DNA from: an uncultured Verrucomicrobia subdivision 3 bacterium
GTDB taxonomy: Bacteria; Verrucomicrobiota; Verrucomicrobiia; Limisphaerales; UBA11358
Assembly (NCBI GenBank): GCA_903850425.1
Contig: CAINLR010000101.1
Coordinates: forward strand, 1 to 40,671
Reading direction: 5' to 3'
DNA length: 40,671 bases
A program made the translations under genes and the position numbers. Every line of letters starts with the position of its first letter. The stretch's first letter is position 1. The notes below the pieces were generated by a model, which was not told the origin of the DNA, did no database searches, and saw nothing but the letters and a program-made list of their open reading frames with translations. Of this stretch, positions 4,049-34,942 are shown in pieces.

Positions 4049-7000
4049 TTATGGATAGACCATGCGATAAAATTCACTCCCGTTCGTGATAACAATGGGA
4101 ACAAAAACTTGATTAGTATTTGAGGAATTTGCCACGGTCGCCCAGTCGTTGGTGTTGCTGCTGACACCATTCTGCAGGTTGTTAGTCTGAATAAGCAGCC
4201 GCCAACCCGTGTGATCGGACGGCCAATTCAACACCAGATTTGTTCCCCCATTTACGCTATTAGTCAGATACGGTTGGGTTTGGTTGGGCTGCAAGGTCAA
4301 GTTCACGGTGTAAAGGTTTGTCGTCAATCCGTCCTGCGCTGTAACGAGCACTTTTACCGCATTCGCAGCTCCTTGCGTCAGAGTCAGTAGCGAACTCGTC
4401 GAACCCGACACCAAACTGCCCTGCGATGTCCCGTTGTAAATCAGAGAGTTCGTCGCCATCAGATCCGCGTTGGTAACCGTCACTGTTACTTGATTATTCG
4501 GCAAGTAGTTTGTGGCTGCGTAAGTAAATATATTTGAGGCAAAAGCAGGGATGTAATTGGCCGGACTTACAACCAGTGAAAGCAGGTAGGCGTTGGTGCC
4601 GCCGGCCGAAGCCGGAGACACTGTGCTGGCAGCCGTCGCTATCGTTTGAGCGGTCGCGCCGCCACCGGCTACAGTGATGTTTCCGGAGTATGTTCCCACC
4701 GCCGTCGTCGCCGCCAACCGCACATAAACATTCGTGCTGGCCAGCGTGCTGCTGCTGTAAGGAACCGACAGACTGGTGCTATACCCTGAATTATTCGTGC
4801 GAGAAACCTCATAGCCAGACGGCGGGGTAACCGTCAAATTGCCGGGGGCACCAGTGAGATTGCTGCCGGCAATATAAAAACTGGTCGGCGTAGCGGATGC
4901 CGTGCCGTAGGTCGTGTTCACCGAGCCAAGCGTCCCCGTGATTGTGATAGTTGGCGAAGCGGTAGATAAGATTTGGAGGTTGTCAATGCCAACATTACCC
5001 ACACCTCCGACAAATCCAATGTAGCCTTGACCCGAAGTGAGTTGTCTTAAAGTAGCGGTGCCCAGCAGAGTTCCACTCTGATAGTAAGCAACCTTGCTGC
5101 CGCTGCTTCCGAAAGCCGAACCCGTTCCGTTGGTGTCTGAAAGAATGACTTTATAATCCACCAGGACATTTTCACCAAAGTTGGTGCCGTAAGTGCCGGC
5201 AGTGGCGACACCATGATCATAAATGGTCGTGGTTCCGTTTCTGCGAAGATGGAAGGTAAAAGCGGTATTAGTGGAATTGTAGCCATCGGAACGGTTGCCA
5301 ATAGTTAGGCTGTTTGAGTTGGCAAAACCATACCAGTTCATAATTACGGACCACCTGATCTCGAGGGGGGCACCAACGGTGGAAAAATCGTAGTCAACCC
5401 TGACTCCTGCGTCGCCGCGCAAGAACAGCACATTGGTTGTCGTGGTAAACGCGGTTGTATTTCCCACTTGTTGTAAATAGGCATTTGCTCCCGTATATCG
5501 TGTCAGATAGGACAGGGGAAACAAAGAGCCGGCTTGGCGCCCCAAAGTATTCTCGAAATCTATATTGACCGAGCCGGCAGACACGCTGTAGTTGTCAGTG
5601 AACAATAGGTTCACATTGACGATTGTAAACGCCGTCGGACTAGATATGGAACTATTGAAGTTTGCATCCGAAGTCAGCGCTGTTACCTGTGCCGTGTAGT
5701 TGCCCGCTGCCGTCGGCCGAGTAACGCTAGGTCCATAAGTCGTGCCACTCACCCCGACATAGCTCCAGGTTGCTGTTCCAGTGTCACCAGAAGGAATTGT
5801 GGTAAAAGTGTTTGGTCCTTGGGGAGAGCCGGTGTTGGTGTAACTTCCCACCGTGACCAATACCGTCGGGGTGACCTTGCTGATATTGTTTGAAATCGTC
5901 GTGCTGCCGATGTCGTTGTAATTCGCGCCGCCCGTCAAAGTCCAGGAATCGCTGGGATACGAACCGGCAGCCGTGTGTGTCGTGCCGCTCAATGTGACCG
6001 TGCCAACCGTGGCACCCGTCTCACCGTTGACACCCGTGACCGTTCCGGCCGTCGCCGAGTGTGAACTGCCGTCATACGTCACCGAGTAGGGCGTGACCGT
6101 GACCGTCGGCGTCGCCTTGTTCACTGTCTGCCCGCCCGCCAAGGTGCCGGTGCTGCTGGCGAAGTTGCCCGTGGCAGTGTAATCCGCCGTGATCGTGTGA
6201 GGCGAACCCGTGACCGGCAAATTGGTCGTGCTGATGCTCGCCGTGCCATTCGGACTGGCCCCGGTCGTCACGGTGACGGGCGAACCCAGCGCCACACCGT
6301 CGGCCATGAATTGCACCGTGCCAGTCGGCACTACCCCGCCGCTTGCCGGGGCGATGGTGGCGGTGAAGGTGACAGAATCGCCGTAGGTGGCAGGACTGCC
6401 GGAAGTAGCCACCGTGGTCGTGGTAGTGGTGCTGAAGTTTAGATTGGAGAACGTGTTGGTGGTAGTTGTGCTGGCACTGCCGCTGGCGACAGCGAGACCG
6501 ACAAGAGCGGGGTCGTTCAGGGTGAATGTCCGCGAGCTGCCAAGCTGGGTCCAAGCGCTACCATTCGTTGAATAATACGCCGCGAAGACGTTGGACGAAG
6601 CGCCCGAACGGGTGAGCCGCAGCCAAATTGGCATCGCGGTGGTGGTGACTTGTGCCATCAGCGCTGCATTGGTGGTTTCGCGCGTGGCCCACTCAATGCC
6701 GGTCACAGTGCGCCAGATGCCGGCGTAGCGGGCACCTGCGTTGGGGAAGACGTCACTGGCGTTGATTGAATCGCGGATCACCAAACCCGCCTGCGAACCG
6801 CCCAGCGAATTAACCCTCACGGTGTTCGTGCCGTTGCCGCTCATCGCGGAAGATACGAATCGGAACCAATCTTGGGTGCCGTTGGTCGAAATGCCCGTTC
6901 CGCCGCCCACAACCGTCCAGACGCCCGAAGCCAACCCCGCATCACTCGGAGGCGTGTGGACGAGGCTGGGAACCGACCACGGGCTGGGCAGGACGACTGC

Positions 7001-8743
7001 GATCATGCTGGTGACGACATTGGTGCCGAACACTGCTTTGATGATGGCCGTCCCCGTGCCCATCAGTGCGGGGGCGGTGTAAACTCCATTGGTGTCAATC
7101 GTGCCACCGCCGCTGGCCACAGACCACGTTACCGGGCCGGTTGAAGTCGGGCTGCTGGTCAACTGATTGATGAGGGACGCGGTGAAGGCCATCGTCTGGC
7201 TGGTAACGACGCTCCCGGTCGCAGGCGCAATCATGGGAGCGAATTGGCCGACGGTCACGTTGTTGAAGATGGCGCGTCCCAACTTTGGGTCACCGGTATT
7301 TCCGCCCTCCACGAGACCTGCCAGAACGGTGCTGCCCATCGTGTTCGTCAGAGCCGTGCCGACAGTAATCCAGTTGACACCCCCGTTCGTGGAGTATGCG
7401 GCCGTATAGGTATTGGTGGCGGTGCGAAGCAGGCGCAGTGTCACTGGCGCGCTGACATTGGAAACGGTGAGTGAAGTCGTCGTCGCGCTGGTGTTGGTGC
7501 GGGAAAGCAGGGTCAGAAAGGCGGGGCTATTGAGTGGAGTGGTATAAAAAAGAGAGATTTGACGCGCGCCCTGTGCTGTGCTTTCGCGAATCATCACGCC
7601 GCTGTTCCCATTGACTCCGGTCGCGTCCTGCACGGTCGCGATGACGGCACCATCCCCAGCAAGCGACGTGCTCGCAAACTGATACTGATTACCGTTGGCG
7701 TAACTGGTGCCCTTTAGCATCCACTCGCCAGTATTGGTGTTCCAAGTGGTGGAGCCGAGATAAGCCGCCGGCGAGACGATGTCGCCTGCAGTCCAACCGG
7801 AGGGCAATGTCGCGGTGGTCGGGGTCACCTCGACCGTGCTTCCATCGGGAATTGTCGAGGCGCTGTATCCTGAATCAGGGGTTACGCTAGGCAAAGATGG
7901 ATCGGCGGAATAAACGTGGAAGTAATCCACCTCCATATTCGCCGGCCAAGGAGTAGTGCCGTCGGGACTACCAGGCCAGGTGGTAGGTGGATCATTCCCC
8001 ACGGCCAGATCAATCAGGACATAAATCGGCTTATTAACCCGATTGTCCTGCTTCAGGGTGGCGACCCCATCCACATACCACGTGATTGTCTTCGCATCCC
8101 AAAGAAAACCGTAGGTGTGGAAGTTGCCATCGGTGGCATTGATATTGATCGCAGTGGGAGGAAGACCATCAATCCCGTGCGAGGTGCTGGCATTTCTAAA
8201 ATGGGTAGTCTGGTGGACGGGACTGGGATTCTCGCGACCAAGCACCTCAAAGATGTCGTATTCACCCTCACCCGGCCAAGCACCGTCATCGCACAACAAC
8301 CAGAACCGTGACCAAAGCCCTTTTCCGGGCGGCAACTTCGCCCGCAATTCGTAGTAGCCGTAGCGCTGCGTGAACTTATGAGCGGAAGTTAATTGGCCGG
8401 ACACATAGGGCTGTGGCTGGGCATTGGGAGTCGGCGCGCCGGCGTAGGTATTGGTAGTCGGCGTGGGCATGGCCTGAATGGTCAGCACGCCATTGGTGGC
8501 ACTGAATGGGTTGCTCGTGGTGTAGCCGCTGGGCGCATAGGTGGGATCGCAAAACCATTGCCCTTGATAGTCTCCGCCGTTGTTACGAGTGCCCCAGAAA
8601 TCCGCTGTCTGCCAACGGGAGCTATTGTAGCTGTTGAACTCATCGTCAAAAGTCAGGTGATAATTAGCCGCCAAGAGCGGCGTGGCCAGCAGCAGCGAAG
8701 CCGCCGCCAGTTGCATTGCGAAATGTGAAGCACGAATTGTCAT
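4049..8743 (-). CDS. Giant secreted GH16 endo-glycanase with beta-sandwich, Ig-like and cadherin-like domains
   Basis: 1564-aa exported protein. The signal peptide ends near residue 26 (LLAANYH). The N-terminal catalytic domain, about 27-280, is GH16, with the active-site signature E161-Y-D163-I-F-E166; members cut beta-1,3/1,4-glucans, agar or related galactans. Two DUF1349-like beta-sandwiches follow at about 315-490 and 590-770, then an Ig-like repeat (770-880) and MBG-type repeats (880-1050). Next comes a LamG-like module whose DNA recurs at 31.6-32.8 kb and 38.1-38.8 kb. A cadherin-like beta-sandwich (about 1390-1490) precedes a C-terminal tail ending FYRMVYP. The long Thr/Ser/Asn-rich filler suggests a surface or extracellular spacer. 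The ATG at 8743 lies 42 nt after the GH2 stop. Catalytic call is firm; the substrate is unknown. Confidence 0.88.
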   Translation of the reverse strand: MTIRASHFAMQLAAASLLLATPLLAANYHLTFDDEFNSYNSSRWQTADFWGTRNNGGDYQGQWFCDPTYAPSGYTTSNPFSATNGVLTIQAMPTPTTNTYAGAPTPNAQPQPYVSGQLTSAHKFTQRYGYYELRAKLPPGKGLWSRFWLLCDDGAWPGEGEYDIFEVLGRENPSPVHQTTHFRNASTSHGIDGLPPTAININATDGNFHTYGFLWDAKTITWYVDGVATLKQDNRVNKPIYVLIDLAVGNDPPTTWPGSPDGTTPWPANMEVDYFHVYSADPSLPSVTPDSGYSASTIPDGSTVEVTPTTATLPSGWTAGDIVSPAAYLGSTTWNTNTGEWMLKGTSYANGNQYQFASTSLAGDGAVIATVQDATGVNGNSGVMIRESTAQGARQISLFYTTPLNSPAFLTLLSRTNTSATTTSLTVSNVSAPVTLRLLRTATNTYTAAYSTNGGVNWITVGTALTNTMGSTVLAGLVEGGNTGDPKLGRAIFNNVTVGQFAPMIAPATGSVVTSQTMAFTASLINQLTSSPTSTGPVTWSVASGGGTIDTNGVYTAPALMGTGTAIIKAVFGTNVVTSMIAVVLPSPWSVPSLVHTPPSDAGLASGVWTVVGGGTGISTNGTQDWFRFVSSAMSGNGTNTVRVNSLGGSQAGLVIRDSINASDVFPNAGARYAGIWRTVTGIEWATRETTNAALMAQVTTTAMPIWLRLTRSGASSNVFAAYYSTNGSAWTQLGSSRTFTLNDPALVGLAVASGSASTTTTNTFSNLNFSTTTTTTVATSGSPATYGDSVTFTATIAPASGGVVPTGTVQFMADGVALGSPVTVTTGASPNGTASISTTNLPVTGSPHTITADYTATGNFASSTGTLAGGQTVNKATPTVTVTPYSVTYDGSSHSATAGTVTGVNGETGATVGTVTLSGTTHTAAGSYPSDSWTLTGGANYNDIGSTTISNNISKVTPTVLVTVGSYTNTGSPQGPNTFTTIPSGDTGTATWSYVGVSGTTYGPSVTRPTAAGNYTAQVTALTSDANFNSSISSPTAFTIVNVNLLFTDNYSVSAGSVNIDFENTLGRQAGSLFPLSYLTRYTGANAYLQQVGNTTAFTTTTNVLFLRGDAGVRVDYDFSTVGAPLEIRWSVIMNWYGFANSNSLTIGNRSDGYNSTNTAFTFHLRRNGTTTIYDHGVATAGTYGTNFGENVLVDYKVILSDTNGTGSAFGSSGSKVAYYQSGTLLGTATLRQLTSGQGYIGFVGGVGNVGIDNLQILSTASPTITITGTLGSVNTTYGTASATPTSFYIAGSNLTGAPGNLTVTPPSGYEVSRTNNSGYSTSLSVPYSSSTLASTNVYVRLAATTAVGTYSGNITVAGGGATAQTIATAASTVSPASAGGTNAYLLSLVVSPANYIPAFASNIFTYAATNYLPNNQVTVTVTNADLMATNSLIYNGTSQGSLVSGSTSSLLTLTQGAANAVKVLVTAQDGLTTNLYTVNLTLQPNQTQPYLTNSVNGGTNLVLNWPSDHTGWRLLIQTNNLQNGVSSNTNDWATVANSSNTNQVFVPIVITNGSEFYRMVYP
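4612..5880 (-). repeat. Shared LamG/Ig module, copy 1
   Basis: This part of the GH16 gene encodes VNLLFTDNY, DFENTLGR, SLFPLSYLTRYTG, LFLRGDAGVRVD, YDHGVATAG and GFVGGVGNVGIDNLQ, followed by a second beta-sandwich. It is collinear at DNA level with 31574-32829 and with 38144-38800. Aligned stretches such as the one around 4970-5040 differ at only about one base in ten by eye. Confidence 0.85.
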
Positions 8744-21081: not shown

Positions 21082-22547
21082 TTGGCAAATATTCCTGTTC
21101 CGGGTCTTGGATAATGTTTAGCAGCGGCGTCAAGCTCGAGCACCCAGTCCAGCGTTTCACCAACGTCTGGCGGTATGAATTTGCGCTCGCCCTTATTATC
21201 AAATTTGCCAATTAGTATTGCCTTGCCGTCGCGTGGATTGAACCACCAAGCTTTGACGGGCGAATTTTTTATTGCCTCCATGCGCACTTTGAAAGTCCGT
21301 CCCACCGGCGCATAAACCATTGCGTAAGTGCCCTCCGAATCGCGCGTGGCAACGAAACGATAGCGGCCTGCGCCAGGAATGCTGTTCGAGACCGTGTCCG
21401 TAACGATGACTGAATCATCCGGCACTCGCGTAAGAAAAGGTCGGGACAGCAGCAAATTTTTCGCGTGCTGCATTTGCGCCGCGCCGGGCTGGTTGATTGC
21501 TTCAAACCACGGCATGAGCGGGGCGTTGATCGGCTCGAAGCGCTTGGGGTCGAAGAACTGCCAGACCGCTTGATGGCCGTAAGTATGACCGCAGGCTCCG
21601 CCGAAAAGATCCCAGTAAAGCGGACGCCGCACATCGCTGGCGAGGCTGATGCCGAGTTCCGGCGCTTTGAAAGAAATCGGGTGGTCTTCGTAAATCGGTT
21701 CGCCATCGAGCACCGGTTTGATCGGCGTGCGTTCGTAATCCGCGTGAGTCTGGTCATAGCGACCGGTGAACTCCGCCACATGGCCATTCTGCCGCATATT
21801 AAAGTCGAGCCAATCCTCACCCTGCCACCACTCCGCCGAACCATGTCCGCCAGGCGGATGGAACGTGATGAGATGCGCGCCGCCGTCTCCCTCGCGCAGG
21901 CCGCGCGCCATGGCGCGGATAACTTCGCGCTGGTCGTCATTTTCTATCGGGCGGTCACCGCCGAGAACCCATACCACTCCGGCATCGCGGTAGCGCGCAC
22001 CCAGCCAGCGGCCATACGTTTCGGCATTAGTGGCATTGAAAATCTCCGGCCCCACGCCCCATTTTTTATTCCATTTGTCGCCCCATGTCGGCAGAAACGC
22101 GACGTAAAGACCAAGTGAATTTGCCTTTGCCACGACATAATCCACATGATCCCAATAATCATTTTGCAGGCCGTCCTTCACGTCGGGCCTGGTCGGATCC
22201 TTGTCACACAACGCGCGATGCCCGTAGAAATTTCTTCCATTCAAATCGTCCATCTCCGCGAGCGCAACGGCCTGAATCACCGTGAACCCCTTTTTCGCGC
22301 GATCCGCAAGATAACGATCCGCGTCCTCGCGACTGGAGCGGTGAAAAAGTTCCCACGCCGTATCGCCGAGCCAGAAGAAAGGTTGACCAGATTCGGTCAC
22401 GAGGAAACGATGATTATCGCTCACCTTCAACTTCGGCAGCGGCGCAGCGAAGGCGGCACCTGTAACGAGGATGAGCGTGAGAAGGAGCAGGCGAACCACG
22501 AGATGTAAACGCAAGGTCTGTTTTATTTGGAGCGGTAGTTTTGTCAT
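21078..22547 (-). CDS. GH140-like apiosidase (DUF4038 family)
   Basis: 489 aa from the ATG at 22547, chosen because [20 protein letters not shown] begins a long signal peptide ending near AAFAA; an in-frame upstream start would overlap the previous gene. The barrel opens with the family signature [21 protein letters not shown]. It continues with [20 protein letters not shown] (Asp198), [10 protein letters not shown] (Glu283) and the [15 protein letters not shown] block. Residues about 395-489 form the putative collagen-binding-like beta domain usual at the C-terminus. The characterised GH140 member removes apiose-containing side chains from rhamnogalacturonan II; Asp198 and Glu283 correspond to its proposed catalytic residues as I recall them. 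Many DUF4038 proteins are untested, so the apiose specificity is an inference. Confidence 0.82.
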
Positions 22548-22581: not shown

Positions 22582-25500
22582 TTACGGTAGTGCTGGCAAC
22601 GTCCCTTGATACACGCGGACGTAATCCACCACGAACTCATCTTCGGCGGTCATTTCCTTCTCCCATAGCTTGCCATCACCGCCGGCCCACGCGGCGGCCT
22701 CGCAACTCAACTTTACATAGCAGGGCTTTTGGCAAGGCCCTTGCGACGGCGTCATGCCTGCATCCTTCTTTCCAAATCCGATCAAATCAGTTCGGCCAAC
22801 TTCCCGTCCATCATAAAAGGCCACGTAGCAATGTTCGTCCCAATACATTCCGTATCGGTGAAATTCCCCGTCACGCAGTTCTGGTGTTGGTGCGAGTTCG
22901 ATGCCTGCCATATTGTGCTTCTTGCCATAGCCATTCCAATGGAATGACATCGAGAGATTGGTCTTATACCAGAGTGGAAAACTTTCCAAGATGTCAGCTT
23001 CAATGGCTTCGCGAGTATCGGAAATAGAATCATAACGAACTTGGGAGCACATGAGCCAGAAGGCCGCCCAATAATCCGCCTTCAGATTTTTTGGCAACTT
23101 GGCACGAGTTTCGAAATACCCATAGCGCTGCTGAAACATCGCCTGCGATGGGTCGTAGTTCCGCTCCGTCCGCACCGCACCACAATCGTAGCGCAGCACA
23201 GGATCTTGCGTCAGCCGAATCCCCAGGTGCAGCGCGCCATCATGCACGGTGACTAATGATTTCACCCAACGACAACTTCCCTGCCGGGGCATCTCCGGTG
23301 CTTCCCATTTGTTGGTATCCAGTTGATCACCGTTAAACTCATCGTCAAAAGTCAGCTTAAACTTGCTCAGGTCAATCTTGCGTTCCGACTTTTTCGCAGT
23401 CATGGCAGCGTTCCAATCCAGCTTCTCCATCGAATTCAACTCGGGCGCGCCACCGCTGTTTGCAGAGCCGGCGACAGCGTAAAGGATGTCGCCAATCAAG
23501 CTTAACCCACCGCTATGACGGCCTTGTTGCAGGTCGGGAAGCGATGTCCACGTGCCGCTCTTTATGTTGAATGCTTCGACTTGGGCGTGCGCTTTATTTT
23601 GCGTCGCGCTCTCGCCACCCGCCACGACCAAGGTATCGCCCCGGGCAACTACCATCGCTCCTGCGCGCGGTGTCGGCAAATGTTGCGGCAAGGTTTCCCA
23701 TGTGCCTTTGGCGATGTCAAAGGCATCCACTGCGGGCATGGTGAGTTCGAAAACCTTGCCGATGGCACCATGCGTTGTGCGACCACCGGTGGCAATGATT
23801 TTCCCGTCCAGCACGGCGGCTTGAAAATGATCGCGAGGACGCGGCGCGTCGGCCAGAATTTTCCACTCGCCAGTTTTTATATTCCAGGTGTCGAGCCACG
23901 GCACAAATCCCTGCCAGTGGCCTTCGGTGATACCGCCAATGACATAAACCAAATCGCCCACAATAACCACGCCCGCGCTGCCGCGCCGCCTTGCCTCGGG
24001 AACCTCCGGCCCTTTGCTCCACTCGTTTTTTGTCTGATCAAAAAACCAAACATTGGGCAAAGGCTGCTCGTGCGGAAAAACTCCCGTGAAAGCACCGACC
24101 ACAGCAATGCGCTCGCCGACGACCACCGCTTGAAAATGGTTAATCTCAATGGGAGGCTTCGCAAGCTGTCGCCAAGCATTAATGTTCGGATCGTATTCCT
24201 CGACCGGCTTGTCGCCGCGTCCACCCAGCAAATAAAGTTTTTCGTGCAGCGCGACCATGCATGTCTCATGGCGAGCGGTGCAGGCATTGGTCGGCTGAAT
24301 CGTTTGCCAATGGGGGCATGAGTGCAAAGATTCGCAGCCGGTGATTTCTCCGAGGTAGTCGAAGAACGCCTGCTTGCGCGGAGAGGAAATGCCCCAACTC
24401 ACGGGCGGCGATTGATAGCCTTGTTCATTCGCCTCACCTGGACGACGGAAATCAAACCAGCCCCACGAGACGTGCTCGGCCACGGCAGCGGCGCAGTTGT
24501 TCGCCGGCTGATCAAAATTCTCGTGGTCGTCTTCATTGAACAGAATCGGAATCGGTCGGTAGCCAGCAACGCTACGAGTTTGCTGAATCATCTTGGTGAT
24601 GCGAGCAGAATTGCTAACTCCGTTACCGTGCAGTAATAGGAAGTCGGAGGCACGCACGACATTTTCCTGCGGAACAAAACCGCCTCCGTAACTGGTGCCG
24701 ACAAGGAGCCGCCGGCCATCGCGCTCGGTTTTGCGCACGCGCTCGATAAGCTCATGCACGCGGGCCGGACGCAGAATTTCGTGATGATAGCCTTGGTTCA
24801 CCTCATTGTTCACTTCGACAAGGACATTTTTCCAGCCGCCATCAAGCAGCCAGCGCGTGGCTTCATCGGTGGCCCGAATGACGGCGGCTTCGTCGCGCAA
24901 ATGTTGATCCTGTCCGAAATAGAAATAACCGAGGATGACGACCATGCCGTTGGCGTCGGCAGCATCAAGCACACGTTTCATGCGCGAAGTGAATTCAGGC
25001 CGAAGTGAGCCGTCCTCGTTGAAGGCACCGGTAATCCACGGCTGCGACTGCGAGTAGCCTTCCGGCGAGCCGCCTTGGAAATTTACCGTGACCGCGAGCA
25101 GGCCGTGATTTTTCCATTCCGGCATCGCGGCGATGAACTCTCTCACATTCCGTTCCGCGTCCCACTTGCCGGTATCGGCGTAAGCCCAGCGCTTCGCGGT
25201 GTCGGGATTTAGGTCGTGGAAAGTCGCCTGCACCATGCGCGAATTCATGAGCAACCCTTCGATGCGATGCCCATTCCACGCGCGACCTTCGTATGTGACC
25301 TTGCCGTTGATGTAAAAATCATCGCTGACAATGCTGACACTTGTTTTAGGTATAGTAGCAGCGATTTCCTTTTTAGATGTGGTGGTTGAATCAGATTTTG
25401 GCGGCGCGGGTAACATGCCTTCATACACTCGGACATAATCCACTACAAACTCATCCTCGGCGGTCATCTCTTTTTCCCAATCTCGACTCGCCCCCACCCA

Positions 25501-27135
25501 CGCGGCGGCCTCGCAACTCAACTTCACATAGCCAGGATTCTGACAGGGGCCTTGGGAGAGAGTTTTTCCACTATTCGTGGCTCCCAACCCAATCAGGTCA
25601 GTTCTGGCGATCTCTTTTCCATCGAGAAACGCCACGTAGCAATGCTCTTCCCAATACATCCCATATCGGTGGAACCCCCCATCCCATAATTGCGGTGTGG
25701 AAGGTGACTCAATTTCGGCTTGGTTATGCTTCTTGCCGTAACCGTTCCAATGGAATGTCAGTGGACAATTAGTTACCTTGGCAAGATGAAAGCTTTCCAT
25801 AATATCCGCCTCAATGCCTTCGCGGGAATCGGATGAGCCCGAATGAGCATTGCCGCACATCAGCCAAAAAGCAGCCCAATAGTCGGCCTGCAGATCTTTC
25901 GGCAGTTTGGCCCGCGCCTCGAAATAGCCATACCGCTGCTGGAACAACATCTTTGAGGGAGCCGGTCCTCGAAAGGTCCGCACCGCACCGCAATCGTAAC
26001 GCAGCACGGGATCTTTGGTCAGCCGAACTCCCAGATGCAATGCGCCGTCGCGCACCGACACCAATGATTTAACCCAGCGCGAGCTTCCCTGCCGTGGCAT
26101 CTCGGGAGCTTCCCACTTCGTGGTGTCCAGTTGGTTACCGTTGAATTCATCGTCAAACGTCAGCTTGAACTGGCTCAAATCAATCGCAGCTTCCTTGGCC
26201 GGCACTTGGTCAACGGGAGCATATTTCACGGGCGGGGTAATTGGCTTTGTGGTGATGTGTTTCAGCTCCGGCGGAAACTCGGTGATGCCTTGGATAGCAA
26301 TGTCACGGTAAAATACTTCAGCCCCTTCGGACTGAATTTGAATATAGCCAGAAGTCAGCGGTTCAATTCCAGAGTAGTCGGGAGTCGGCCTCTGGGCGTT
26401 GAAGAGAACGTTGTTGACCGTGCCGTTGACGATGAAGACGGAGGTTTGGGCGACGGTATAGACTTCCATGGTGTTCCATTCGCCAACCGGCTTCTCAACA
26501 CTTGGTCCATGGGTAACCGGCCCGGCACCGGAGCAGAAAATACCACTGGGATCGAAGTTGGCGCGCACGCCCGCGATTTGGGGCTTCACCGTTGAGTCAG
26601 CTTTTGATCCAAGCGGGAAGAAATCCCCGCAATCATTTTCCATCACCTGACATTCCAAACAATTCCGCCAGCAGTTCCAAAACGCACCGTGCGGGTCAAA
26701 GCAATGAATCAAGACGCCACTGTCCCGACGCTGGGTTTCTCTCGGCGGCCATTTCTTGGCACCCCAGCGGAATTGCCATCGCAAATGATAATTTTCAAAT
26801 ATCGCCTTGGTCGAAACACAGCCAAAGATTTGGCCACTGACATGCAGCACCAGCTTCCCATCTTCTTGAATGACGGTGAAAACTTTCAGCGGATCATTAC
26901 CAAGGCCCAGCGGTGTTCCTCCATGGATGCCATCTTCGCTTTGCGTGGCTGGCAGGCCGGGGATGTTCACGGTTTTATGAGGCACGCCGATAAAGATCTC
27001 CCATTGCGACAGATTGGAATCCAGCAAAGGTTTCCATTCCGCTGAAAGGGTTACCGGTTGAGTGTCACTGGCAACGCCCGGGAAGGCTGGAGTGATGGCC
27101 GTTATCGTTAGACAGAGGAAAATGGGGAGTCTCAT
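22582..27135 (-). CDS. Five-module secreted enzyme: DUF1080 - GH16 - GH-A barrel - Kelch - GH16
   Basis: 1517 aa with a signal peptide ending near residue 22. Residues about 30-290: DUF1080 (3-keto-disaccharide hydrolase-like) sandwich with [23 protein letters not shown] and [17 protein letters not shown]. About 318-572: GH16 with catalytic E-A-D-I-M-E near 441. About 599-932: a clan GH-A-like barrel with candidate acids in [11 protein letters not shown] (near 777) and [11 protein letters not shown] (near 866). About 950-1239: Kelch propeller repeats ([34 protein letters not shown]). About 1253-1512: a second GH16 with E-A-D-I-L-E near 1377. Both GH16 copies begin [11 protein letters not shown] and end [10 protein letters not shown], so one arose by internal duplication. 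GATTAGGAAG stands just before the ATG, and the GH3 stop is 4 nt upstream. I know no characterised enzyme with this layout. A single intact frame of 4.5 kb argues against an accidental fusion. Confidence 0.85.
22600..23375 (-). repeat. GH16 module duplicate, C-terminal copy
   Basis: Encodes the second GH16 domain of the five-module enzyme. It matches 25420-26184 over its whole length in protein ([46 protein letters not shown]) and clearly in DNA, with divergence concentrated around the active-site loop. Confidence 0.85.
25420..26184 (-). repeat. GH16 module duplicate, N-terminal copy
   Basis: First GH16 domain of the same enzyme, paired with 22600-23375. The two copies flank the TIM barrel and Kelch modules as direct repeats of about 760 bp, so recombination between them would delete both inner modules and one GH16. 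Confidence 0.85.
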
Positions 27136-27139
27136 CTTC

Positions 27140-29407
27140 CTAATCTTTGACAGTTTTTGCTTTTATTTGCGAGCCGATGGCAGCCGCCGAGACCGCTGCT
27201 GTGCTGCGAAGATTTTCTACCAGTTCAAACGTCAGCTTTTGGTTGCCGACCTGAATGTAGAAATCCCCCGCCTCCAGCAGCCGCTTGCCTTTGCCATCAG
27301 GATAACTAAGATCGCGCTGGGGATCTATTTCAAAGCTGAAAACCACCGTCTCGCCGGGATTAATTTCCTTCTTCTGGAAAAATTTTAATTCTTTCCCCGG
27401 TCGCGAAATCGAGCACACCGGATCAGAGATATACCAGAACACAGTTTCCGCGCCCTTCACCGTGCCAGTATTTTTCACCGGCACTTGCACAGTCAGTTTC
27501 TGGGCTCGCGTTAATTTATCAGCCGACAAAGTCGCCTTGCCATATTTGAAGGTGGTGTAACTTAACCCGTGCCCAAACCAATAGAGCGGTTCGGTGGGAA
27601 TATCCTGGTATTTGCCGCCCCAAGGCCGAGCGCTGGTTCGCATATTGTAGTATGTGGGGATTTGTCCCGTGGTGAGCGGGAATGTAATCGCCAGCCTCCC
27701 GGAAGGATTTACACGGCCCGATAAGATTCCCGCCAGCGGCGTGCCGCCGGCAATGCCGGGCTGCCAGATTTCCACGATCGCGTTGGCCATCGGTTCCAAC
27801 CGCTGCAATTCCAATGGCCGCCCATTCGATAGCACCAAGACGATTGGCTTGCCGGCCAGCTTGAGTCGGGCCACGAGTTTCTCCTGAATGACCGGCAGGG
27901 CGATTGTCGAGCGGGAAGCATTTTCACCGCTCCAGCTTTTCTTTTCACCAAGGCAAACCAGCACCGCATCCGCCCGGCTTGCGATGGCGACTGCTTCGTC
28001 AAAGCCAGATTCATCTTCGCCATCAAAAACACATCCCCGGGCATACGACAGCTTGAGACGCGTTCCAAACTCGCTGGCCAGTCCATCAAAAATGGATTCC
28101 ACATCCTGCTCCTTTCCATTGCCGGACCAGCAACCGAGCAGGTTCGCTTTGTCTTTCGCCAACGGCCCAATTATAGCGAGCGCCTTGATTTTGCTGGATA
28201 GCGGCAGAATTTCTTTTTCGTTTTTCAACAAGACCATGGATTCTTCCGCGAGCTTGGCCGCCACGATTTTGTCCACCGGTTGGAGATACCGTTCAGATTC
28301 GGCGACAGTCGTCGTATAGGGCTGATCGAATAAGCCGAGGCGAAACTTAACCCGCAATACTCTGGCCACCGACTCGTTGATCAAATCCATGCTTACTTTG
28401 CCTTCGTCCACCAATTCCTTGAGGTAATCCGAATATGCGCGATCAACCATGTCCATTTCGACGCCAGCTTGGAACGATTTCAGTCCCGCTTGCTTCCGAT
28501 CCTTGGCGACCCCCTGCGCGATGAGTTGTTCAATGGCATTCCAGTCGGAAACAACAAAGCCATCGTGACCCCAACGCTGTTTCAACACTTCCGTGAGCAG
28601 ATAATGATTGGCCGTCGCCGGCACGCCGCTGATGTCGTTGAAGGCGCTCATCAACGTCGCAGCCCCGGCCTTCACGCCAGCCTCGTAAGGTGGAAGATAC
28701 GTCTCCCAAAGTGACTGGGCAGAAATGTCGCTCGCATGGTAATCGCGTCCGCCCTCGGACATGCCATAACCCGCGAAATGCTTTAAACAAGCTGCGATGC
28801 TATTAGGTTTGGACAAGTTTGTGCCTTGATAACCTCGGACTGTCGCCACACAAAATGCAGAAGCAGCATAAGGATCTTCTCCAAATCCCTCGGCGACCCG
28901 GCCCCATCGAGGATCACGCGCAATGTCAATCATCGGAGAAAAAGTCCAGTCAATCCCGGTAAGCTTGGTTTCCCGGGCCGCCATGCCGGCGGCTTGAGAT
29001 ACCAAGGCCGGATTCCATGAGCAGGCTTGAGCCAGCGGAATTGGATAGACGGTTCTCATCCCGTGGATCACGTCGAACCCAAACAGAATGGGGATGCCGA
29101 GACGCGATTTGTCCATCGCCCGCCGCTGGATTTCATTCCGCAACACCGGGTCTTCCGACAGAAAAATCAACGAGCCGATCTCCGGCGGGATGTCGCCTAC
29201 CTTTTCACTGCGATTGTTCGGGTTCAGATTTTCCCCAAACGCAGATTGGTTGAGTTGCAGGATTTTCTCTTCCAAGGTCATCCGCCCGACCAGATCAGCG
29301 ATCCGGTGTTCCATCGGCTCATTCTGGTTTTTGTAAGCAGGCTGGGCCTGAACGGATTGAACCGCGAGCATGAAAGAGAGAATCAGATTAAAGCTTGTTG
29401 ATTTCAT
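27140..29407 (-). CDS. bglX: Family 3 beta-glucosidase, BglX type
   Basis: 755-aa exported (probably periplasmic) enzyme that hydrolyses terminal non-reducing beta-glucosyl or beta-xylosyl residues. The signal peptide ends at VQAQ. Domains in order: TIM barrel with GFDVIHGMRTVYPIPLAQA, KHFAGYGMSEGGRDYH and nucleophile Asp288 in GFVVSDWNAI; alpha/beta sandwich with SMVLLKNEKEILPL and GCWSGNGKEQD; and an FnIII-like domain (PLYWFGHGLSYTTFKYG ... GDFYIQVG). Length and motif order match Escherichia coli BglX closely. The short C-terminal extension (RSTAAVSAAAIGSQIKAKTVKD) is extra. The ATG overlaps the stop of a 43-codon upstream reading frame as ATGA. It heads the tightly packed group of six enzymes. 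Confidence 0.93.
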   Translation of the reverse strand: MKSTSFNLILSFMLAVQSVQAQPAYKNQNEPMEHRIADLVGRMTLEEKILQLNQSAFGENLNPNNRSEKVGDIPPEIGSLIFLSEDPVLRNEIQRRAMDKSRLGIPILFGFDVIHGMRTVYPIPLAQACSWNPALVSQAAGMAARETKLTGIDWTFSPMIDIARDPRWGRVAEGFGEDPYAASAFCVATVRGYQGTNLSKPNSIAACLKHFAGYGMSEGGRDYHASDISAQSLWETYLPPYEAGVKAGAATLMSAFNDISGVPATANHYLLTEVLKQRWGHDGFVVSDWNAIEQLIAQGVAKDRKQAGLKSFQAGVEMDMVDRAYSDYLKELVDEGKVSMDLINESVARVLRVKFRLGLFDQPYTTTVAESERYLQPVDKIVAAKLAEESMVLLKNEKEILPLSSKIKALAIIGPLAKDKANLLGCWSGNGKEQDVESIFDGLASEFGTRLKLSYARGCVFDGEDESGFDEAVAIASRADAVLVCLGEKKSWSGENASRSTIALPVIQEKLVARLKLAGKPIVLVLSNGRPLELQRLEPMANAIVEIWQPGIAGGTPLAGILSGRVNPSGRLAITFPLTTGQIPTYYNMRTSARPWGGKYQDIPTEPLYWFGHGLSYTTFKYGKATLSADKLTRAQKLTVQVPVKNTGTVKGAETVFWYISDPVCSISRPGKELKFFQKKEINPGETVVFSFEIDPQRDLSYPDGKGKRLLEAGDFYIQVGNQKLTFELVENLRSTAAVSAAAIGSQIKAKTVKD

Positions 29408-29820: not shown

Positions 29821-30474
29821 TCAAATGGCAGCGGCTTTGGACATCCGGCTATAACGACGGATGCCACCGGCACTAACCAGCACCACAGCGAAAACCACTA
29901 GCGCCACATTCACTGGTTCCGGCACCGCCGTGATGTCCAAACTCCAGCCGTTCAGCGTCGCATCGCCACCACCAGCCAGTGTGTCTGAAAAATAAAGTGT
30001 CCAACTGCTGTTCGGATTAATCCCGTTGAAATCCGATAAGTTGCCCGCCGCGTTGTAGGTTCCGCTCAAAACTGAACCGCTGATCTCACTCTGAATGGAA
30101 CCGTGCTCCGTGCTGCCGTCTTGCAAAGTGATATTCATCCCGGCCCCGGTCGCGCCGAATCCGTTCGCCGCGTAGCCCGGCTGGTTCATCAGCGTCACCG
30201 TGGTGGCACCGTTCACCAGATAGGCATAGATCCCATTGTTGTAACCGCCGCTGATGTTCAAGGTCACCGTGAAGCTCGAAAGCGATGAACCCAGCCCCGA
30301 CAAGGTCATCGTGTTCGCAACCACGATGGCCGGATTCCCATCCACGATGGTGGGATTCGCCACGGCACCCATATCGGCGCCGCTGCCAACGCCTGTGCCC
30401 TGGAAGTAAAGCGCCGCTTGCCCCGCCGTCAACGACCCGAGAAGCACCAGTCCGACTAAAATCTTTTTTTTCAT
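29821..30474 (-). CDS. PEP-CTERM protein with P-domain-like beta sandwich
   Basis: 217 aa. The signal peptide MKKKILVGLVLLGSLTAGQAA is followed by a single beta domain. The end of that domain, SSWTLYFSDTLAGGGDATLNGWSLDITA, resembles the proprotein-convertase P domain, which often accompanies exported hydrolases. The C-terminus is a textbook exosortase sorting signal: V-P185-E-P187, hydrophobic helix, then basic GIRRYSR. An exosortase processes such tails in the inner membrane; none is encoded here. It starts 34 nt after the stop of the 1477-aa surface protein and closes that operon. Ligand or function beyond surface or matrix attachment is unknown. Confidence 0.85.
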   Translation of the reverse strand: MKKKILVGLVLLGSLTAGQAALYFQGTGVGSGADMGAVANPTIVDGNPAIVVANTMTLSGLGSSLSSFTVTLNISGGYNNGIYAYLVNGATTVTLMNQPGYAANGFGATGAGMNITLQDGSTEHGSIQSEISGSVLSGTYNAAGNLSDFNGINPNSSWTLYFSDTLAGGGDATLNGWSLDITAVPEPVNVALVVFAVVLVSAGGIRRYSRMSKAAAI

Positions 30475-30508: not shown

Positions 30509-33500
30509 TCAGGGGTAGCTCAAACGATAGAATCCATCGGCAGGCGAGATCGTGTTCGTCCAACTGTAGGAACCGTCACCGGTTGGCGACAGTGTCACCG
30601 GGGCCGCATTCGTCCAATCCGCCGGACTCAACGTGGTGGCGCGCTGGACATGATAGCTGTAGCCGGGAATGCCGTGGAAACTGATTACCGCATGGCCGGA
30701 GCCATCCGTTCCCGGTGTGATCGCCGGGCCAGCCACGCTCGCAAAGTTGAGCGTCACTGTGCCGCTGCCCGAGACCGGGCCGTCCGTAACCGTGTAGGGG
30801 AAACTGTCGCTGCCCGGAACGAAGGACGGCGAGTTGGTGTATTTAATCATGGTGCCCGCGCCATTGGTAATGACCGTCCCCCCGTTACTGGTCGCGCCGA
30901 CAGTGATCGAGTAATTGTGAGACCCTTGCGAGCTGGTGAGGCCAGCAGCCTGAATGTCCGCCAGCAGAATGATGCGCGCGACCCCCGGCGCACTCGTATA
31001 AGTCAGGTTCGGCACTTGGACGCCGGTGACCGTCAAGGCCGTGCTGGTATCGGACGTGGCCGCATTCAGGTTGGCATCACCGGCATAGGCGTAGGTGATG
31101 GTATAGGCAGAGGACGAAGGCGGAATGGTTGCCGTCGGAAAACTCACGGAGAAACCGCCCGTGCCGCCGGAAATGGTGGCGCTTTGGGTGTTGCCATTGA
31201 TGGTGACGCTGACCGTCTCGCCGTCGGCAGGATAGCCCGAACCGGCGCTCACCGTGCCGCTCAAGGTCACGCTGGCTGTGCCATAACTGATGCTCTGGCT
31301 GGCGGTCAATCCGGAAATTGTCGGCGTCGCCTGGTTGATCGTGAAGCTCAGCGTGTTAGTCACACTAGTGTAGCTCGCATCCGACGCCACAGTGTTCGAG
31401 ACATAGTAGGTTCCAGCATTTGCTGGTGCGTTCACACTGGAATAACTGGTCGTGCCAGTGCCAACGAAGTTTGTTGTTGTTGCTCCAGTTGACCCGCTAA
31501 ATGTTATGCTTGGTCCCTGCCCCGAACCATTGTAGGTGAACGAAGCGCTGCCGTAAGTGATAGTCGAGGGAGCCTTGCTCACCGTGCTGAGAGCTGTCGC
31601 AATTGTTTTAGCATCGCCGCCGCCGGAAACGGTGATGTTTCCGTAATAGCTACCCAGCGCCGTTGTAGCCGCCAGCCGCACATAAACCGTGGTGCTAGCC
31701 AGTGTGCCGCTGGCAGTGATGGGCAGACTGGTGGTGTAGCCAAAACCGCTGCTGAGGGAAACTTCAAAGCCAGACGGCGGTGTGACCGTCAAATTGCCAG
31801 TCAGTGAAGTGCCGGAAACCGCGAAACTGCTCGGTGCGGGCGAAGCGTGGCCAACGAAGGTGTTCACCGCACCCAACGGACCGGTGAGAGTGATGCTGGC
31901 CGGAGAGACAGATCCGATTTGGAGGTTGTCGATGCCAACATTACCAACGCCGCCGACAAATCCGATGTATCCTTGGCCCGCAGTGAGTTGAGTTAAGTTG
32001 GCGGTGCCCAGCAGAACTCCACTCTGATAGTAAGCGACCTTGCTCCCGCCGCTGCCGAAAGGCGAACCCGTGCCGGCCGTGTCCGAAAGGACGACCTTGT
32101 AATCCACTAGGACATTTTCACCAAAGTTGGTGCCGGACGCGCCGGCAGTGGCGACACCGTGATCATAAATGGCCGTCGTGCCGTCTCTGCGGAGATGGAA
32201 GGTGAAAGCGGCATTAGTCGGATCGTAGCCATCGGAACGGTTGCCAATCGTAAGGCTGTTCGAGTTAGCAAAACCAAACCAGTTCATAACTACTGACCAC
32301 TTGATCTCAATGGGGGTGCCAACGGTGGAAAAATCGTTGTCAACCCTGACTCCCGCGTCGTTGCGCAAGAACAGCACATTGGTAGTCGTGGTAAATGCGG
32401 TTGTGCTCCCCACTTGCTGTAGGAAGGCGCTTCCGCCCGTATATCGAGTCAGATAGGACAGAGGGAACAAAGAGCCAGCTTCGCGTCCCAAAGTATTCTC
32501 AAAGTCTATATAATTCGTGCCGTAAGACACGATGTAGTTGTCGGTGAACAGCACGTTGACATTAAGGATTGAAAACGCCGTTGCACTGGATAAGGAACTG
32601 TTGAAGTTTGCATCTGAAGTCAGAGCCGTCACCTGCGCCGTGTAGGTGCCTGCGGCTGTCGGCGGAGTCGAGCTGGCCGTGTAAGTCGTGCTGCCCGTGC
32701 CCATATAGCTCCAGGTAGCTGTTCCGGTGTCACCAGACGGGCTCGTGGTAAAAGTGTTAGGCCCCTGCGCCGATCCGTTGTAGGTGTAAGTCCCCACCGT
32801 CACCGTCACCACCGGCGTCGCCTTGCCCACCGTCACCGTTCCGCTTGCACCCGTCAGCGTGTAGTTGCCAACCGCCGAACCGGCCAGCGTCAAACCGCCA
32901 AACGAACTGATGCTCGGCGAACCCACGTTGGCACTGGCCAGTGTCACGCTGCCAGACATCGTCAGATTTGCTCCGTCTAAATTGTTGCCAAACGTCAATT
33001 GAGCCGCCGTCGCCGAGGCGCTGCCGTCGTAAGTCTTGCTGCCGGTGAAGGTCAGCGCCCGCTGGCTGATCGTCTCCGTTCCGCTCGCCCCCGTCAGCGT
33101 GTAGTTACCCGCCGCCGAACCGGCCAACGTCAAACTGCCAAACGAACTGATGCTCGGCGAACCCACGTTGGCACTGGACAGCGTTACGCTGCCAGACATC
33201 GTCAGATTTCCACCGTCCACATTGTTGCCAAACGTCAACTGCGCCGCCGTCGCCGAGGCGCTGGCGTCGTAGGTCTTGCTGCCGGTGAACGTCAACACCC
33301 GCATACTCACGGTATTTCCGGTTGATGCCGTGGTGATGTTTTGACTGGTCGCACCGGTGCTGGACAGCACGATGTTTTGAGAATTGTAGGAGCCGGACAC
33401 GGCAGCCGTGGCGGCAAGGCGAATCCGCAACGTTCCGCTGGCAGTGCCACCGGTCTGCGTGAAGGTGGCCGTGCCGCCGTAAGTCGTCCCATGGCTGGAA

Positions 33501-34942
33501 ACTTCAAAACCGGTGGGCGCAGTGGCGACCAGATCGGCCGTCAGGTTGGCCCCGGAAACGGCGAACGATTGCGCTGCCGAAGCCGCGCCGTAAGTGGTGG
33601 TAAAGGCGGTAGCGGTGGCCGCTCCGGTGATGCTTGGCGAAGCCGCGTTCACCGTCACCGTTCCGCTCGCGCCCGTGAGCGTGTAGTTGCCCGCCGCCGA
33701 GCCGCCCAGCGACAAACCGCTGAACGATGTGATGCTCTGCGACCCCGCAGCGGCACCGGCCAGCGTCACGCTGCCCGACATCGTCAGATTCGCACCATCC
33801 AAATTGTTGCCGAAGGTCAACTGCGCCGCCGTCGCCGAGGCGTTGCCGTCGAAAGTCTTGCTGCCGGTGAAGGTCAATACCCGCGCACTCACTGTATTTC
33901 CGCTTGATGCCGTGGTGATGTTTTGACTGGTCGCGCTGGCGCTGGACAGCACTGCTGCGTTCACTGAATTGTAAGTTCCGCCGACCGCCGCAGTGGCGGC
34001 GAGGCGCACGTTTAGTGTGCCGCTGGCGCTACCGCCAGACTGGGTAAAGGTCGCGGTCGCGCCATAGGCACCTACACCGTTTGCGACTTCAAATCCAGTT
34101 GCTGCGGTGGCAATAAGGTTCGCAGTCAAGTTCGCGCCGGAAACACTAAAACCCTGCGCCGTTGAAGCCGTGCCGTAAGTCGTGGTAAAAGCGGTGGCAG
34201 TAGCTGCGCCGGTGATGCTTGGCGGAGGACCCGCCGAGGCTTGGGTCATGCTGAAGTTGTCATCGACAGGCACGCCTGAGCCTGCGTTCGACCGAAAATA
34301 GGCATAGCTTGCTGTGCTACCGTATACAGTTGAATTAACAGCGGTCGTGGTATACGAGTGGACCAGGGTGCCAACATTACCAGAACTGTCGCTATTATAA
34401 ACCGAAACGGTCATATTAAAAGTGTTGGCAGTTGCCGTTTTGGAAACAGTCAACCTAAAATCATACCAGTTGCCGGCGGTTAAAGTAAATGTGCTGCTGT
34501 CCGAGACTGTTGTGCCGCCATTGACTCGGATATCAAATGCTGTCCCGCTAGAATTATACCGGGCACCAAGGTCGTTAGCATCGCCCGTGTTTTGCGGTGC
34601 CAGTCCGAGCTGGGGCTCGGCAGCGCCAGAACCGCTGCTCTTCTTAAAGAAGAGGTCCATGGTGATGTCACCCGAACCGGGATTGACAGACACATCCTTG
34701 CGGATCAGTCGGTCATCCGAGACAGCTGGTGTTAGACTATTAGTCCCACCAAGACCCGTGCTGGAACCAATCGCGAAGGAGTTGGCATACACATTGTAAG
34801 CCGTCGTGAATGCGGTTGCAGCTGTTGAACTGTAGGTGTCAAAGGTGTCCGAAAACACCACGGTGGCATGGAGCGAACTGGTGATGGCGAGCGTAAATAC
34901 CAGGGCAAGCGTTTTTTTTATGGAGTTAGGTAACGTGTTCAT
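30509..34942 (-). CDS. Giant surface protein of YDG, MBG and LamG-like repeats, no catalytic domain seen
   Basis: 1477-aa exported protein; the signal peptide ends near SSLHA. An N-terminal LamG-like jelly roll (about 27-235) lacks the GH16 catalytic signature. Then come two composite units, each a sandwich beginning SITGAATATAFTTTYG plus a YDG repeat (LTFTGSKTYDG ... NYTLTGASGT), and a third YDG repeat. After these come an MBG-type repeat, the module shared with the GH16 proteins, Ig-like repeats (about 1170-1340) and a tail ending DGFYRLSYP. YDG and MBG repeats are typical of long bacterial adhesins and extracellular scaffolds. No enzyme motif was found, so an adhesive or polysaccharide-binding role is inferred. 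It starts 33 nt after the tandem-domain protein's stop. Confidence 0.8.
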   Translation of the reverse strand: MNTLPNSIKKTLALVFTLAITSSLHATVVFSDTFDTYSSTAATAFTTAYNVYANSFAIGSSTGLGGTNSLTPAVSDDRLIRKDVSVNPGSGDITMDLFFKKSSGSGAAEPQLGLAPQNTGDANDLGARYNSSGTAFDIRVNGGTTVSDSSTFTLTAGNWYDFRLTVSKTATANTFNMTVSVYNSDSSGNVGTLVHSYTTTAVNSTVYGSTASYAYFRSNAGSGVPVDDNFSMTQASAGPPPSITGAATATAFTTTYGTASTAQGFSVSGANLTANLIATAATGFEVANGVGAYGATATFTQSGGSASGTLNVRLAATAAVGGTYNSVNAAVLSSASATSQNITTASSGNTVSARVLTFTGSKTFDGNASATAAQLTFGNNLDGANLTMSGSVTLAGAAAGSQSITSFSGLSLGGSAAGNYTLTGASGTVTVNAASPSITGAATATAFTTTYGAASAAQSFAVSGANLTADLVATAPTGFEVSSHGTTYGGTATFTQTGGTASGTLRIRLAATAAVSGSYNSQNIVLSSTGATSQNITTASTGNTVSMRVLTFTGSKTYDASASATAAQLTFGNNVDGGNLTMSGSVTLSSANVGSPSISSFGSLTLAGSAAGNYTLTGASGTETISQRALTFTGSKTYDGSASATAAQLTFGNNLDGANLTMSGSVTLASANVGSPSISSFGGLTLAGSAVGNYTLTGASGTVTVGKATPVVTVTVGTYTYNGSAQGPNTFTTSPSGDTGTATWSYMGTGSTTYTASSTPPTAAGTYTAQVTALTSDANFNSSLSSATAFSILNVNVLFTDNYIVSYGTNYIDFENTLGREAGSLFPLSYLTRYTGGSAFLQQVGSTTAFTTTTNVLFLRNDAGVRVDNDFSTVGTPIEIKWSVVMNWFGFANSNSLTIGNRSDGYDPTNAAFTFHLRRDGTTAIYDHGVATAGASGTNFGENVLVDYKVVLSDTAGTGSPFGSGGSKVAYYQSGVLLGTANLTQLTAGQGYIGFVGGVGNVGIDNLQIGSVSPASITLTGPLGAVNTFVGHASPAPSSFAVSGTSLTGNLTVTPPSGFEVSLSSGFGYTTSLPITASGTLASTTVYVRLAATTALGSYYGNITVSGGGDAKTIATALSTVSKAPSTITYGSASFTYNGSGQGPSITFSGSTGATTTNFVGTGTTSYSSVNAPANAGTYYVSNTVASDASYTSVTNTLSFTINQATPTISGLTASQSISYGTASVTLSGTVSAGSGYPADGETVSVTINGNTQSATISGGTGGFSVSFPTATIPPSSSAYTITYAYAGDANLNAATSDTSTALTVTGVQVPNLTYTSAPGVARIILLADIQAAGLTSSQGSHNYSITVGATSNGGTVITNGAGTMIKYTNSPSFVPGSDSFPYTVTDGPVSGSGTVTLNFASVAGPAITPGTDGSGHAVISFHGIPGYSYHVQRATTLSPADWTNAAPVTLSPTGDGSYSWTNTISPADGFYRLSYP
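31574..32829 (-). repeat. Shared LamG/Ig module, copy 2
   Basis: Collinear with 4612-5880 and 38144-38800. Encodes VNVLFTDNYIVSYG, DFENTLGREAGSLFPLSYL, YDHGVATAGASGTNF and GFVGGVGNVGIDNLQ. This copy sits in a protein with no GH16 domain. Confidence 0.85.
32827..34226 (-). repeat. Tandem composite YDG repeats
   Basis: Two direct units of about 580 bp (roughly 33640-34226 and 33068-33640) each encode an SITGAATATAFTT sandwich followed by a YDG repeat. A third YDG-only unit lies at about 32827-33066. Phrases such as QLTFGNNLDGANLTMSGSVTL recur nearly unchanged, and the DNA is highly similar, as expected for recent expansion by unequal recombination. Confidence 0.85.

Follow-up and report, generated by a model that had tools for sequence, protein, structure and literature searches.

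The question raised by this locus is whether a single bacterial protein joins several polysaccharide-degrading modules that are encoded separately elsewhere, and, if so, what such a protein would do. The window, which is the whole stretch of 40,671 nucleotides analysed here, contains an open frame that runs from position 27135 to 22582 on the minus strand, from an ATG to a TAA, and comprises 1517 codons including the stop. The encoded protein is referred to as P0001. No internal stop interrupts the frame, and the same stretch on the plus strand contains many stops in that frame. An earlier note, based on the letters alone, had proposed an uninterrupted frame of this length without giving a strand, and translation bears this out. 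The modules of P0001 are arranged in the order DUF1080, GH16, clan GH-A-like barrel, Kelch propeller and second GH16. The same note had listed these five parts, and its list stands: all modules but the barrel passed their Pfam cut-offs, and the barrel was settled by a structure model. The Pfam matches far exceed the chance level, with the exception of the barrel's own sequence match. P0001 is a true composite that combines known types of module, and it is unique in the genomes searched.

All features of P0001 lie on the minus strand. Residues 1-23 (27067..27135) form a hydrophobic, signal-peptide-like N-terminus with a guessed cleavage place; a signal peptide had been suggested before, and the N-terminus makes export probable. 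The eight most hydrophobic 14-residue windows of the protein are found at the N-terminus and inside the Kelch propeller, with none at the junctions, and the reading frame is kept across all four linkers.

The two GH16 modules occupy residues 318-579 (copy a, 25399..26184) and 1254-1517 (copy b, 22585..23376). P0001 belongs to the Pfam family PF00722 by two stretches, with 62.5 bits for the whole protein, and the copies score 36.8 and 33.1 bits against a cut-off of 22; the better of the two stretches covers residues 397-513. The motif E-x-D-x-x-E, the catalytic mark of the GH16 family, is intact in both copies, at residues 442-447 and 1379-1384. Matches to NCBIfam models, namely EglC, kappa-carrageenase, ExoK and BglS, are all partial and far below their cut-offs. 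A structure model of copy b (pLDDT 88.2) has the beta-jelly-roll fold, and its best structure matches are all GH16 enzymes, with Z up to 24.0 and rmsd of 2.6-2.7 over 218-220 residues. ZgLamC (4crq), the GH16 of MLGUL (5nbo) and SfGH16 (9xkt) share the jelly roll and the E-x-D-x-x-E motif with P0001 at Z of about 23-24, but are only ~19-27% identical to its GH16 modules. Glucanases, laminarinases and carrageenases are tied within about one Z unit, which leaves the substrate group undecided.

Over 262 aligned codons, the two copies are 75% identical in amino acids and 72% in bases, with 49% identity at third positions; dN is 0.16 and dS is about 3, which is saturated. Saturated synonymous change together with 75% identity indicates that the split of the GH16 copies is old and that both are still constrained, and a recent duplication is thereby ruled out. 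Copy a aligns with copy b right up to the latter's last residue, and the linker that follows copy a thus begins where copy b has its stop. We infer from this alignment that a former gene end may lie at the start of the copy a linker.

The nearest relative of both copies is a GH16 domain in genome G754, which belongs to the same class as the window's genome and to a different family (78% identity to copy b and 74% to copy a). It is followed by the C-terminal halves of SGNH-esterase proteins (L094, L096 and L097), with GH16 domains 44-49% identical to those of P0001, whose partner is an esterase and not DUF1080, a barrel or a Kelch propeller. One of these SGNH-GH16 frames (L094/L106, genome G531:C48) ends in a TAG that is the one stop in a 1502-codon frame, so that a long in-frame stretch continues beyond it. 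In a 20-row GH16 tree, copies a and b are sisters at 99/99. An 8-row tree with G754 added, for which 12 of those 20 rows, including two long-branch rows, were dropped and one row was added, does not settle how copy a, copy b and G754 branch; at the differing columns of the alignment, G754 agrees with copy a at 19 and with copy b at 31. Because this order is left open, the duplication may predate the split from G754.

The barrel (residues 597-934, 24334..25347) was placed by structure model and alignment. Its Pfam match, to PF00150 (GH5) at residues 706-818, reaches 16.6 bits and falls below the cut-off of 23.5. A model built from 24 aligned sequences has a mean pLDDT of 92.1 and matches the GH140 apiosidase 8t9w_B with Z 22.4 and rmsd 3.4 over 279 residues at 8% identity; GH5 mannanases such as 3wfl are tied with it (Z 22.3, rmsd 3.0 over 264 residues, 14% identity). 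These matches identify a (beta/alpha)8 barrel of the clan GH-A kind. In clan GH-A, an Asn-Glu acid/base follows strand 4 and a Glu nucleophile stands at the end of strand 7. In the model, N777-E778 comes just after strand 4 (residues 177-183 of the model) and E868 ends strand 7 (270-274), and both glutamates are invariant in all 24 aligned sequences. The GH5 mannanases and GH140 apiosidases thus share the fold and the places of the acid pair with the barrel, but only 8-15% of residues. The catalytic acids pointed out in the earlier note, in the barrel as in both GH16 copies, are present, with positions one or two residues away from its estimates.

The 24-sequence profile found no solved relative in the PDB at 0.01, and a single-sequence search of solved structures returned, apart from a chance match, Cellulase 5 (4m1r) at E 0.014. 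No NCBIfam match was found for two standalone relatives of the barrel, and all ten near relatives scanned score below the PF00150 cut-off of 23.5 (best 20.1 bits). Searches of solved structures, NCBIfam and open-licence PMC literature found no characterised member of this family. The barrel family is the part of P0001 most likely to be new, and the barrel could belong to a clan GH-A glycoside hydrolase family that has yet to be described, as the first of its members to be noticed, a proposal that we put forward tentatively, at somewhat less than even chance. The sober alternative is a branch of GH5: a distant relative, L141, passes PF00150 with 26.1 bits against 23.5, so the barrel may belong there and not to a new family.

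Record titles place the strongly conserved barrel in Verrucomicrobiota, Planctomycetota, Bacteroidota and Pseudomonadota, often standalone and recurrently joined to further carbohydrate-active domains; one match (L016) comes from a bin titled Planctomycetota. Hand counts, which take in partial matches and the genome of the window itself, give a match of at least 50% identity in 43 of the 320 genomes of the order and in 12 of 387 drawn from the phylum. Beyond the window's own, 45 loci match the barrel at 60-81% identity, 38 of them in open frames of 353-459 codons, of which two are truncated by the locus end, and seven in larger frames, including L056 with GH2 domains and L063 with DUF4380. More distant relatives (36-39% identity) are joined to beta-lactamase-fold (L141, L144), Sde182-like (L140), DUF6298 (L143) and TrmO (L139) domains. 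The last of these, at L139:920-2905 on the minus strand in genome G107, is a barrel-like frame that runs into a TrmO tRNA-methyltransferase domain, an odd partner for an exported enzyme. On plasmids, the barrel is matched at 53% in Persicobacter and at 57%, by an annotated hypothetical protein, in Marinovum algicola, where it lies within an ABC sugar transporter cluster that has genes annotated as beta-xylosidase and xylose isomerase. The window's genome holds a second, standalone copy of 67% identity on contig C77, near two GH106 genes; the cluster there (L123, G000) also encodes an 1818-codon protein with PATR repeats.

The DUF1080 / 3-keto-disaccharide hydrolase family domain spans residues 29-285 (26281..27051) and matches PF06439 at residues 33-281 (7.4e-26, 91.8 bits, cut-off 26.8), which makes it a member of that family. 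A profile search reached putative glycosylhydrolases only marginally, at E 0.002 for the best match. Frames of 292-313 codons (L025, L087, L089, L090) encode relatives of 47-54% identity. The Kelch propeller spans residues 943-1238 (23422..24309), with repeats at ~942-1223 assigned to Kelch_6 by five stretches (3.5e-30, 103.4 bits, cut-off 25.3), and its relatives of 42-51% identity are frames of 323-444 codons. No other P0001 module was found in the four listed DUF1080 frames or in the listed Kelch frames. NanM and mutarotase-type Kelch proteins have the propeller in common with P0001, but their matches are partial and below the cut-offs (PF24996, 41.5 of 45 bits; NF010730, 38.1 of 416 bits), and the Kelch module is not assigned to NanM.

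The earlier note knew of no characterised enzyme with this domain order, which holds within the genomes, PLSDB plasmids and literature searched; the domain-order search in other genomes produced no second case. In each of four sets, with 49 genomes of the family, 320 of the order, 387 taken from the phylum and 384 taken from the class, the five-part arrangement was seen in a single genome, which is always the window's own. It was seen in none of 213 genomes of G754's order and in none of 59 genomes of G754's phylum. These genome sets overlap, and at most two candidates per genome were scored in the sets of 320, 387, 384 and 213, 11 in the set of 49 and nine in the set of 59, and a diverged fusion may therefore have escaped these searches. 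Among PLSDB plasmids, 217 records have some match and none has 80% of P0001 in one place, and a contig scan with six exact peptide patterns returned 14 loci, all with the barrel only. An apparent continuation from barrel to Kelch in tblastn matches at L011, L013, L014 and L022 was rejected; the barrel frames there end in a stop, and no Kelch frame was found in those loci. In the genomes searched, relatives of the modules mostly stand alone as one-module proteins, and others are fused to different partners. One conserved operon as the source of the five parts was also rejected: two modules stand together in none of 34 loci (20 regions and 14 loci), so no operon link of the five is seen elsewhere. 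Layout-directed searches of open-licence PMC papers found no protein with the five-part order. Multi-domain, multi-activity glycoside hydrolases are a known general kind, as described in an excerpt of PMC4928363. P0001 resembles them in carrying several catalytic modules in one exported chain, but its combination and order were not met there in the excerpts that the searches covered.

Fusion of a different kind is seen in G754. At L158:10290-12716 on the plus strand, an 809-codon frame joins a GH16 domain directly to an apiosidase-like domain. The former is the relative of copy b described above, and the apiosidase-like half is 68% identical to the product of the gene immediately downstream of P0001 (PF13204, 21078..22547, minus strand; the start at 22547 is inferred, and the longest ORF starts at 22640). 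In the window, the GH16 of P0001 and this gene are separated by a stop, 34 nt and the inferred start, which has its own signal-peptide-like segment. Only a standalone barrel and the L158 GH16 match P0001 in G754 at an E value of 1e-8, with no DUF1080 or Kelch match at that level. L158 thus holds the closest GH16 to P0001, but with the fusion border elsewhere. The same neighbours are fused in G754 and split in the window, which indicates that fusion borders in such clusters shift between lineages.

Upstream, a GH3 gene (27140..29407, minus strand) ends in a TAG 4 nt before the ATG of P0001. The genes on the same strand encode a GH43-CBM6 protein, a beta-helix protein with a GH120 insert, a GH16 with a Big domain, GH2, GH106, GH42-like, GH39 and apiosidase-like proteins, P0001, the GH3 protein and another GH16; the GH2 neighbour matches the GalA model with 1073 bits against a cut-off of 900. 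Elsewhere in the genome, DUF1080 is part of a GH3-PA14-DUF1080 protein and of composites with arabinofuranosidase domains, which shows that large glycosidases of this composite type are no rarity there. At 6.9 Mb the genome is larger than the other 48 of the 49-genome set, which range from 2.3 to 6.5 Mb (rounded).

We consider it probable that P0001 is a real, exported, multi-activity polysaccharide degrader, built by joining modules that relatives mostly keep separate. Export would proceed through the signal-peptide-like N-terminus. The two GH16 modules would cleave a beta-glycan internally by the retaining mechanism of GH16, and the barrel, with E778 as acid/base and E868 as nucleophile, would trim the same or a decorating linkage. 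The DUF1080 and Kelch modules would either bind the glycan or process the sugars set free from it, and the GH3 and other cluster enzymes would finish the products. The export and activity of P0001 are putative, as are a substrate common to its modules and the functions given here to DUF1080 and Kelch, and we would infer only that the cluster would fit a beta-linked glycan decorated with rhamnose, arabinose or apiose. The earlier proposal of one endo-acting machine on one polysaccharide is plausible in view of the dense same-strand glycosidase cluster, the mere 4 nt that separate the GH3 stop from the ATG of P0001, and the two constrained GH16 copies; the endo-acting part of it is retained for the GH16 modules and not for the barrel.

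Three other explanations bear on this reading. The frame could have been assembled from separate gene pieces, given that the order is known from one genome, in one metagenome-style assembly of 197 contigs with 3.7% estimated contamination, and that GC3 differs slightly between modules (0.58-0.59 in DUF1080 and GH16, 0.63-0.65 in Kelch and barrel). However, all four joins are in frame without a stop, each between complete domains, the GH16 copies differ at half of their third positions and are too diverged for a collapsed or misjoined repeat, and module fusions occur often, both in this genome and among relatives; an artefact is very improbable. A more serious competitor, though still unlikely, is a loose fusion in which the modules target separate glycans in a cell wall of mixed composition and are united only by joint export. 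It would fit a cluster that mixes beta-galactosidase, rhamnosidase, GH39, GH43, apiosidase-like and GH3 types, as well as the unrelated surroundings of barrel relatives, including the Marinovum plasmid cluster, but joint export and a duplicated endo-type module equally suit one main polymer with side chains.

DUF1080 and Kelch could instead be the pathway-defining enzymes, carrying out 3-keto-sugar chemistry that GH16 merely feeds, which we regard as improbable. An excerpt of PMC9007349 describes the DUF1080 protein BT2157 as a 3-ketotrehalose hydrolase, and residues conserved in 14 aligned DUF1080 sequences are also present in P0001. Against this, another DUF1080 protein, THTE_1561, is described in an excerpt of PMC10881899 as an endo-xanthanase/lichenase, the DUF1080 domains attached to GH3 and arabinofuranosidases in the same genome fit a binding role, and general domain searches of the window recognised no LacABC-type oxidoreductase gene. 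What BT2157 and THTE_1561 have in common with P0001 is membership in PF06439. With both activities described in the family, as far as these excerpts go, a catalytic or a binding role fits, and the DUF1080 domain of P0001 may be catalytic or may only bind.

A fusion found in nature reveals the activities whose joint delivery was advantageous. P0001 as a degrader links a widespread barrel family and a DUF1080 subgroup with endo-acting GH16 enzymes, which allows the substrates of both to be tested on a single gene and its single-module mutants. If the barrel does represent a new family, its delivery with an endo-acting GH16 pair points to its substrate. Elsewhere in the window, two large repeat-rich proteins (30509-34942 and 4049-8743) have YDG or Big-type repeats and are alike in places by eye, and a small exported-looking protein (29821-30474) carries what is presumably a PEP-CTERM-like tail. 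At the contig end (38944-40580), two ORFs resemble IstB and IstA of what we take to be an IS21-type element.
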